Origin: Lachnospiraceae bacterium
GTDB taxonomy: Bacteria > Bacillota > Clostridia > Lachnospirales > Lachnospiraceae
Assembly: GCA_030531435.1 (NCBI GenBank)
Contig: JAUNNN010000003.1
Location: forward strand, 1 to 64,000
Reading direction: 5' to 3'
Length of the DNA stretch: 64,000 bases
Shown here: positions 5,903-58,116 of the stretch, one piece after another
Layout: each line of letters begins with the position of its first letter
Position numbering within the stretch: position 1 is the stretch's first letter
Program-made: the position numbers and the translations under genes
Notes under the pieces: model-generated
What the model saw: the letters and a program-made list of their open reading frames with translations, nothing else
Told to the model about the DNA's origin: nothing
Database searches by the model: none

Positions 5903-6295
5903 TTATTTCATAATTACGATACCATCTTCGTCGTTAGTAATAACTTTGCTATCGCCTACGAAGTACTGATACTGTTTAAGAGAAGCATCCATATTCATTT
6001 CAGAAATAGCTTTATCCATTTCTGTCTGCATAGCTTCTGCATCATAATTAGTGAGACTAAACTTGTCTCTCTTAGTAAAATCTCTTGAAATATCATCAAG
6101 GCTGGCATTGCTCTTTGAACGAATACCATCAAGATTAAGATTAATCTTGAGTCCAGGTGCTTCCTCCTGCTTTGGAACCTGCTCTACAGGCTTTACTTCC
6201 TGCTTTGGAGCTTCTACTGGAACCTTTGAAATATTTTCTATTCTGTTGTATGCCGACATCATGTCGAACTGACCCAATCCATTAATTGTCATCAT
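5903..6295 (-). CDS. Uncharacterised protein with sigma-28-type promoter
   Basis: I do not recognise this 130-residue protein. It is soluble and polar, with no signal or membrane segment. A Pro/Glu/Lys-rich stretch spans about residues 28-48, and a helical part DISRDFTKRD leads to a conserved-looking end with LKQYQYFVG and IVIMK. The ATG at 6295 has GAAGGG five bases upstream; a GTG two codons earlier is possible. It is monocistronic, with a terminator behind it. A near-perfect sigma-28 promoter and a sigma-A promoter lie ahead, so it is probably expressed with late motility genes. The promoter is what is seen; a motility role is inferred. Confidence 0.8.
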   Translation of the reverse strand: MMTINGLGQFDMMSAYNRIENISKVPVEAPKQEVKPVEQVPKQEEAPGLKINLNLDGIRSKSNASLDDISRDFTKRDKFSLTNYDAEAMQTEMDKAISEMNMDASLKQYQYFVGDSKVITNDEDGIVIMK

Positions 6296-6347
6296 ACTCA
6301 CCCTTCTTTAACGATCCATGTTTACATAAACCGTTACCCTCGGTCTT

Positions 6348-6376
6348 ATTATAAAATATTTATTTGTTGGTTGCAA
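6348..6376 (-). promoter_or_regulatory. Sigma-A promoter for the 130-aa gene
   Basis: On the minus strand TTGCAA (6371-6376), 17 bases, then TATAAT (6348-6353), with an extended AT-rich context. It lies just downstream of the sigma-28 promoter. Confidence 0.75.
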
Positions 6377-6381
6377 TACTT

Positions 6382-6407
6382 ATATCGGTGTTAATTCTGA
6401 TTTCTTA
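6382..6407 (-). promoter_or_regulatory. Sigma-28 (SigD) promoter for the 130-aa gene
   Basis: On the minus strand TAAG (6404-6407), 15 bases, then CCGATAT (6382-6388). This matches the flagellar sigma consensus TAAA-N15-CCGATAT at all but one base. The cognate sigma factor gene is at 26941-27708. Confidence 0.75.
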
Positions 6408-6447
6408 ACCCCTATTTTAAAATTTTTTATAAATGATAATTTTTCAT

Positions 6448-26940: not shown

Positions 26941-27708
26941 TTAATCCGCTGATAAAACGATATCCATATATCCGCCAAGTTTCTGCTTCATTTTATTTAA
27001 TGCCTTTGTATGAAGCTGAGATACTCTTGATTCTGATACATCTAGGATATTGCTTATTTCCTTTAATGTAAGCTCTTCATAATAGTATAAAAGAATAACC
27101 TTCTGTTCCTTCTCAGTAAGCTGGGTCAAAGCTTCTGCCAGCATCTTTTTAAGTTCTTCCTTCTCGATTGCTTCTTCTGGTCTGTCTACTCGTGATGATA
27201 AGCCACCTTCTGAAACGTCGCTTCCTGACTCCATAAATTCATCCAGGGATACTACGCCAGTAACCTTCATCTGTGACTGCCAACCATCGTACTCCTCACT
27301 TGTAATACCAATGGCAGCTGCTATTTCATCATCTGTAGCTTCTTTACCAGTTCTAAGCTCTATTTCTTTAATGGCCTCTGTGATCTTCTTCTGTCTTTGT
27401 CTGACAGTTCTTGGGATCCAGTCCATTTTTCTAATCTGATCTAATATTGCTCCCCTGATTCTAAGAGATGCGTATGTCTCAAATTTAACATCTTTTGTCG
27501 CATCAAACTTATCTATGGCATCAATAAGACCAAAAATACCATAGCCTACCAGGTCGTCATATTCCACGTTGTAGCCAAGATACATAACAAGACGTCCTGC
27601 CACAAGCTTTACAAGTGGAGCATACTCAAGTATAAGTTTTTCCCTAAGCTCAGCAGAATGAGTTTTTGAATACTCACTCCAAAGCTTTAACTTTGCGCCC
27701 TCGTCCAT
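26941..27708 (-). CDS. sigD: Flagellar sigma factor sigma-28 (SigD/FliA)
   Basis: The 255-residue sigma-70 family protein has region 2 (GYGIFGLIDAIDKFD, then FETYASLRIRGAILDQIRKMDWIPR), region 3 and region 4 with TLKEISNILDVSESRVSQLHTKAL. The RGAILD..R..DW block is characteristic of the FliA/WhiG group. It directs RNA polymerase to late flagellar and chemotaxis genes; a matching promoter occurs at 6382-6407. As in Bacillus subtilis it lies near the end of the fla/che operon. No FlgM anti-sigma gene is in the window. Confidence 0.95.
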   Translation of the reverse strand: MDEGAKLKLWSEYSKTHSAELREKLILEYAPLVKLVAGRLVMYLGYNVEYDDLVGYGIFGLIDAIDKFDATKDVKFETYASLRIRGAILDQIRKMDWIPRTVRQRQKKITEAIKEIELRTGKEATDDEIAAAIGITSEEYDGWQSQMKVTGVVSLDEFMESGSDVSEGGLSSRVDRPEEAIEKEELKKMLAEALTQLTEKEQKVILLYYYEELTLKEISNILDVSESRVSQLHTKALNKMKQKLGGYMDIVLSAD

Positions 27709-57711: not shown

Positions 57712-58116
57712 TTACTTACCAATAGCAGTTTTAATCTCTGTAAATTCGCTATTAATACTCTGAACAATTGCCTGATAAACAATCTGGTTTGATGCAAGTT
57801 CAACGTTTTCGTTATCTACATCAACATTGTTTCCATCAAGACGATATGAGTAATTCGCGTAATCGGTGTACTGACGTGGCTCAATATGTGACAGTCTGTT
57901 TCTGTCATTAAGATCGCGTACTTTAGTATCGAGGCTTGTATACTTAGACGCCTTTAGTGCATGCTGCAACTCGGCCTGAAATGAAATATCCTGCCTCTTG
58001 TAGTCTGGTGTGTCGATGTTAGCGATGTTATTAGCTATAACTTCATTTCGCTTCCACGCGCCATCAGCTGCTTTTTCTAAAACATTAATGTAATCAAAAA
58101 CCCCAGTATTAATCAT
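57712..58116 (-). CDS. flgB: Flagellar basal-body rod protein FlgB
   Basis: The 134-residue rod protein has EVIANNIANIDTPDYKRQ and NVDVDNENVELASNQIVYQA, both standard for FlgB. It is the first gene of the fla/che operon, with AAAGGTGG upstream and a sigma-A promoter in the preceding gap. Confidence 0.96.
   Translation of the reverse strand: MINTGVFDYINVLEKAADGAWKRNEVIANNIANIDTPDYKRQDISFQAELQHALKASKYTSLDTKVRDLNDRNRLSHIEPRQYTDYANYSYRLDGNNVDVDNENVELASNQIVYQAIVQSINSEFTEIKTAIGK

Follow-up and report, generated by a model that had tools for sequence, protein, structure and literature searches.

Is a lone 130-residue gene, with no usable match to a curated protein family and away from the flagellar operon, itself a flagellar gene, and if so, what might its product do? 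The window analysed here, a 64,000-nucleotide stretch of Lachnospiraceae DNA, is part of contig 14 of a 2.19-Mb genome (95 contigs, 97% complete). In it, the orphan coding sequence (5903..6295, minus strand) runs from an ATG at 6295 to a stop codon that ends at 5903; an in-frame GTG two codons upstream of the ATG would extend the product to 132 aa, and a mechanically called ORF of 73 aa lies inside the gene on the opposite strand (6051-6272, plus strand). An earlier note, made from the sequence alone, had described the gene as standing by itself between terminators, and two strong hairpins were indeed found flanking it: on the 3' side, an intrinsic terminator-like hairpin of 9 bp followed by a T run (5888-5867, minus strand; -18.6 kcal/mol, z -4.9), and on the upstream side, after nrdR, a 13-bp hairpin with a T-rich tail (6483-6454, minus strand; -20.6 kcal/mol, z -7.7), which probably ends the upstream transcript. 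The terminator pattern as such occurred three times in 6 kb compared to 2.9 times in shuffled sequences. The flagellar operon opens with a flgB-like ORF that starts at 58116, about 52 kb from the orphan and close to the 50 kb given before, and an ORF read as fliA lies at 26941-27708, closing the flagellar operon as described in PMC3720852.

Ahead of the gene, the two promoter-like elements lie where they had been put before, TAAG-N15-CCGATAT followed by TTGCAA-N17-TATAAT. The former, sigma-28-like element (6382..6408, minus strand, first base 6408) is composed of TTAAG at 6408-6404 and ACCGATAT at 6389-6382, and agrees with the TAAA-N15-CCGATAT consensus applied to flagellins of Eubacterium and Roseburia (PMC3720852). 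Sites were scored by the number of matches out of 12 bases to TAAA-N15/16-GCCGATAT, with 10/12 as threshold. With overlapping registers counted apart, the window contains 20 such sites, while a Markov model (10 windows) predicts 14.2; taken by itself, the match does not exceed what chance would give in 64 kb. The site is significant because it is conserved across homologues: one scoring at least 10/12 was found within 200 bp upstream of 28 of 34 homologues versus 12 of 445 control regions, the controls being upstream regions of mechanical, uncurated ORFs of at least 200 aa with the first start codon used, unlike the homologue starts, which were chosen by ribosome-binding site. One family search supplied 30 of these 34 loci, which include the near-duplicates L031, L032 and L034, and a public collection the other four, all from Lachnospiraceae MAGs, in keeping with the family named before. 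In all 34 the spacer of the best site within 250 bp upstream was 15 or 16, with 14 also allowed. In a second set of 44 further loci, from genomes outside the first, 29 had the site, at least two misplaced starts (L090 and L165) being kept as misses. Both sets together retain the promoter in 57 of 78 loci, and 11 or 12 of the 12 bases are matched in 29 of the 78 (17/34 and 12/44). Hence, a conserved promoter of the TAAA-N15-GCCGATAT type, which served as the test for a sigma-28 late-class gene, does stand ahead of the orphan. Calling this element the window's clearest sigma-28 site, as was done before, is right only among sites upstream of a gene, because three places score 11/12 and all are inside ORFs, read as flagellar genes. 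Compared to flagellins, the orphan's box is if anything the plainer one, since only 10 of 31 recognised flagellins in the same loci reach 10/12 within 200 bp.

The second, sigma-A-like element (6348..6376, minus strand; TTGCAA at 6376-6371, N17, TATAAT at 6353-6348) could be discarded as a general family feature: over the 34 loci, a site of at least 10/12 was found for 6 homologues versus 70 of the 445 controls, which is background level. The stacked sigma-28/sigma-A layout, searched for with a pattern written after the layout had been seen, was present in 3 of 34 loci, namely the window, a genus-mate (G193) and G241 (L001-L003), the last two being the best-matching relatives. Thus, of the basal expression proposed before, the box itself stands but is kept just in the closest relatives, and so any basal level may be a lineage trait.

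We examined the distribution of the orphan across its family, represented by 397 genomes, of which 45 gave matches in a single-sequence search and 99 in a profile search. The orphan class, taken as matches with an ORF of up to 180 aa (a longer, flagellin-like class being assigned by length or by a search with the paralogue described below), is carried by 68 of the 397, and ORFs were extracted for 67 of these carriers, with G103 left out. A Pfam Flagellin_C match was present in 67 of the 68 carriers versus 213 of the 397 genomes overall (Fisher p about 1e-19, a value that ignores shared ancestry and for which lists were compared by eye), and the lone carrier without it, G168, has a flagellin-like match at 1.7e-23. 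At the order level, 16 of 196 genomes gave a match, 14 of them in the same family and the other two with 266- and 282-aa frames aligned over the tail alone, and at the class level 4 of 196, all in the same family; the listings of these two sets give no share of genomes outside the family. The set test proposed before, that homologues be confined to flagellated Lachnospiraceae, therefore came out in favour, and the conserved box together with the co-occurrence with flagellin lends good support to the late-flagellar or motility role suggested then: on the sequence evidence, the orphan very probably belongs to the late-flagellar genes.

The surroundings of the gene are of another kind. At least one of nrdR, yqeG, aroE and efp is near the orphan in 38 of 45 loci, and the remaining seven have another shared housekeeping setting. 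In two loci (L035:9308-14179 and L041:4416-9241), the ORFs between nrdR and the orphan read as a peptide ABC transporter cluster; rRNA was discarded for three loci of relatives as what fills the 5 kb separating nrdR from the orphan, no rRNA family being found there. Transporter-like ATPase ORFs also precede the orphan in the other setting (L051, L069). The window fliA and cheY proteins also match at L036, L047 and L064 and at L058 and L063, and these matches were taken for other sigma factors and response regulators.

The protein itself gave no usable match in Pfam, NCBIfam or PHROGs, its low matches in NCBIfam (0.014) and PHROGs (0.074) being taken for chance. Flagellin_N (PF00669) was found neither in the window protein in Pfam nor among 32 members of its family; Flagellin_C (PF00700) was not found over the cut-off, with one of the 32 members at 0.079 and no match in the window protein; and the Pfam model of FlaG matched neither the window protein nor the 32 members. 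Judged by curated models, the orphan does not belong to the flagellin family. Many members are built of a short N-terminal motif, a linker that varies and, towards the C-terminus, a conserved block, SDI--LDMEKAISDMKKD-VL-QYQYFVG. In the window protein, the N-terminal stretch, which in many homologues carries the motif shared with an atypical flagellin paralogue, corresponds to residues 2-20 (6236..6292, minus strand), and the stretch related to the D1-C/D0-C junction of flagellin, which ends in YQYFVG, to residues 85-114 (5954..6043, minus strand). After the block, many members have one of two alternative endings, EDG-VI-K-like or ENFSL-/RGAENFSL-like (for example, in L155-L182 and L064-L074), which from their sequences may mark two subfamilies with different partners. 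Members are 20-36% identical to the window protein, which is divergent, with T, E and M where most members carry L, D and K. Two AlphaFold models, both of low confidence (pLDDT 57.6 and 49.4), have a predicted helix at residues 86-100 in one and, as the sole helix, at 86-109 in the other.

Described before as an orphan of unknown function, the protein does lack a curated family, but it has a link to flagellin that had been missed. The orphan profile also finds a second class of ORFs, mostly of 250-280 aa, and the paralogue of this class in the same genome (G000:C86:16820-17578, equivalent to L075:8821-9579) matches Pfam Flagellin_N at 2.8e-27 and Flagellin_C at 1.3e-9. Comparison of the orphan with this atypical paralogue of ~255 aa, whose profile was made of 16 sequences picked because the orphan profile matched them, gave an hhalign E of 4.1e-12 (probability 97.6%, score 78.3) over 51 columns, compared to E of 0.09 to 0.81 and scores of 10 to 18.0 for 12 unrelated control families. 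With ordinary flagellins, E was 0.0072 and the probability 5%, at a score (24.5) above that of the best control (18.0), and the alignment shares its register with that to the paralogue; this match, taken alone, is weak. Among 33 canonical flagellins recognised by pattern in the ORF sets of the loci (at least four flagellin ORFs having escaped the pattern), 10, with one gene counted twice, scored with the orphan profile, all with alignments ending 21 residues from the C-terminus, and of 18 sub-threshold matches to the orphan profile 6 were canonical flagellins (rough P 6e-9). In the reverse search, a profile of the canonical tail recovered orphan ORFs only weakly: of 79, counting duplicates, 24 came up, the best at E 0.016, and 16 unrelated ORFs were interspersed with them. 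In a PDB search two unrelated proteins ranked ahead of the two flagellins, which took places three and four at E 1.9. FlgL is a flagellin homologue, and its NCBIfam model is the one that most members match: 4 of 32, at best at 0.00079 and far below the 127-bit cut-off, all of one subfamily with the ENFSL-type ending and all in the C-terminal part of the orphan, reaching FlgL positions 370-378 of 387. Stray low NCBIfam matches to unrelated families also occur, one at 0.0045. Finally, an N-terminal pattern, chosen after looking, was shared by orphans (44 of 76) and paralogues (11 of 16); no canonical flagellin among the 33 had it, and of 766 other ORFs, with starts called mechanically, it was seen in 23. 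Given the 12-family controls and the positions of the FlgL matches, the reading of the orphan as a flagellin relative is borne out. From these comparisons we conclude that it is a flagellin relative without the core, closest to the atypical paralogue, from which it may descend directly; with fairly high confidence, its C-terminal segment may be called homologous to the flagellin tail.

The atypical paralogue was found in 69 of the 397 family genomes at 8.8e-67 or better, the next match being at 2.5e-59, and is cleanly separate from ordinary flagellins. We read its sequences as having a shortened N-terminus and a charged and altered D0-C, and it is possibly not a filament subunit. The KAISD-KK--VL--Y signature at the C-terminus is common to it and the orphan, and so, for 11 of the 16 paralogues, is the N-terminal pattern. 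Unlike the orphan, it has in this genome a copy with both Flagellin_N and Flagellin_C domains, lacks a sigma-28 box of at least 10/12 upstream in all 16 cases, and has a distribution independent of that of the orphan. In flagellated genomes, the two occur together in 24, which does not go beyond chance (Fisher p 0.53), and coupling of the orphan with the atypical flagellin was discarded.

A copy of part of the flagellin tail, probably switched on with the late class, may act on the handling of flagellin. The reading that we favour, at a probability of roughly 0.5, is that the orphan product is late-class and mostly disordered and, by mimicking the flagellin tail, docks on a chaperone of the FliS family. 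The sigma-28-controlled gene would thus yield a small, mostly disordered flagellin relative that has lost the core but kept terminal recognition segments: a short motif at the N-terminus would be joined by a variable linker to a C-terminal helix of the D1-C/D0-C junction type. This product would dock on a FliS-family export chaperone, either FliS or the second FliS of these genomes, and, made together with flagellin, would compete for the chaperone and thereby tune flagellin export; alternatively, the chaperone would hand it to the export gate. Both FliS binding and a site of action inside the cell or after export are what we infer, and binding to a FliS-type chaperone is the favoured mechanism.

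In Bacillus subtilis, flagellin D0-C wraps round FliS (PMC6070490), and the FliS-bound tails resolved in crystals comprise residues 478-518 in one species (PMC6070490) and 476-514 in H. pylori FlaB (PMC7248283). The stretch copied in the orphan sits about 50 to 21 residues from the canonical flagellin C-terminus and, from the tail ranges in the crystals, about two thirds of it would fall inside the FliS-bound part. Of the FliS-bound tail, the orphan recognisably shows just the first part, the pocket-filling rest being uncopied and replaced. FliS contacts of H. pylori FlaB include Phe485 and Lys487 (PMC7248283), which by a gapless count from the C-terminus correspond to Met and the second Lys of 'DMKKD' in the orphan; at these positions the window protein retains Met but not Lys. 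Two FliS-family proteins, FliW and FlgM were each encoded in all six genomes tested, all of them orphan-positive, and we take the second FliS as a lead only. The FliS copies in this genome are at G000:C58:35161-35487 (minus strand) and G000:C36:13834-14172 (plus strand), and the second FliS directly follows a 376-aa flagellin gene. The mechanism is given no more than the above probability because the paralogue has no promoter or distribution link, the setting of the orphan is a housekeeping one and the models are poor. Tentatively, the proposal may be extended to a 'coreless flagellin', with two terminal segments on a disordered string, which would be a dedicated chaperone ligand, kept under the late-flagellar sigma factor, and a decoy gauging or tuning flagellin export; the atypical flagellin, with the same two ends, would then bind the same partner, which might be the second FliS, as a further ligand.

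Were the proposal right, the orphan would work like a flagellin-derived chaperone ligand, and a late-class copy of the chaperone-side part of flagellin would provide a testable handle on how bacteria that have several flagellins and two FliS copies meter flagellin. Among the common commensals of the gut are flagellated Lachnospiraceae, whose flagellins matter to host immunity, and the orphan's protein family could enter annotation as 'late flagellar, flagellin-tail-like'. A search of the open-access literature on sigma-28 genes of Lachnospiraceae, flagellin-like proteins and flagellin mimics competing for FliS (titles and starts of abstracts, with subscription journals and supplements outside its scope) gave no description of the orphan among the matches listed.

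Other functions could be envisaged for a late-class protein with a flagellin-like tail. The orphan may be exported, as a minor axial component or as a secreted flagellin-like effector, with its N-terminus as export signal and its tail as a chaperone-binding or assembly element. The late-class promoter, the N-terminal pattern shared by orphans and paralogues well above the other ORFs, the disordered build and the precedent of FlaC in Campylobacter (PMC4863622) are all consistent with export, but the orphan lacks a Flagellin_N domain for filament assembly and the N-termini of canonical flagellins lack the pattern, and we regard this possibility as doubtful. We consider it rather unlikely that the orphan has a regulatory role exerted via a different protein that binds flagellin, by occupying FliW, which would free CsrA to block flagellin translation, or the docking site on FlhA. 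FliW is encoded in all six genomes, and the copied stretch would partly overlap both regions shielded in B. subtilis flagellin, 236-249 and 275-300 by FlhA-C and 240-260 by FliW (PMC6070490); however, FliW binding is described as needing only flagellin residues 1 to 60-72 (PMC6070490), and the orphan has no Flagellin_N domain.

A view of the orphan as a functionless flagellin relic in decay, as the low identity between members and a stop codon reported inside some matches (G170, G034) might suggest, is very improbable given that the promoter is kept in most loci and dN/dS was 0.13-0.19 in three close, overlapping pairs; it was 0.09 in a fourth pair, in which dS was saturated, and two more pairs gave no value. 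FlgM is, like the orphan, a small late-flagellar protein, and the orphan, mostly disordered in the models and with a late-class promoter and a helix near the C-terminus, could be a divergent FlgM, the anti-sigma-28 factor; nonetheless, there was no match to FlgM (PF04316) in the window protein or the 32 members, a separate FlgM was found over the cut-off in all six genomes (here on G000:C36), and we discard this identity as hardly credible. No more plausible is a gene unrelated to flagella with a coincidental promoter and distribution, for which the housekeeping neighbours would speak, against the promoter conserved in two sets, the flagellin-positive carriers and the flagellin-like tail.

The favoured reading, a flagellin-tail mimic docking on a FliS-family chaperone, can be set beside two known proteins. 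Campylobacter FlaC, a flagellin relative reported as dispensable for motility (PMC4863622), is itself a flagellin, whereas the orphan is without the Flagellin_N domain and the core. Helicobacter HP1076 is similar to flagellin D1 and a competitor of flagellin on FliS, and offers a precedent for such a look-alike, though its deletion is reported to cause no motility phenotype (PMC7248283); like the orphan, it is a small flagellar protein resembling part of flagellin. It was absent from the PDB matches of the orphan profile at E 10, the bacteria differ, and its likeness is to the folded D1 domain, whereas that of the orphan is to the D1-C/D0-C junction, within a chain that is probably disordered. 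Where HP1076 competes for FliS, what the sequence of the orphan presents is a copied stretch that would overlap the part of flagellin bound by FliS.
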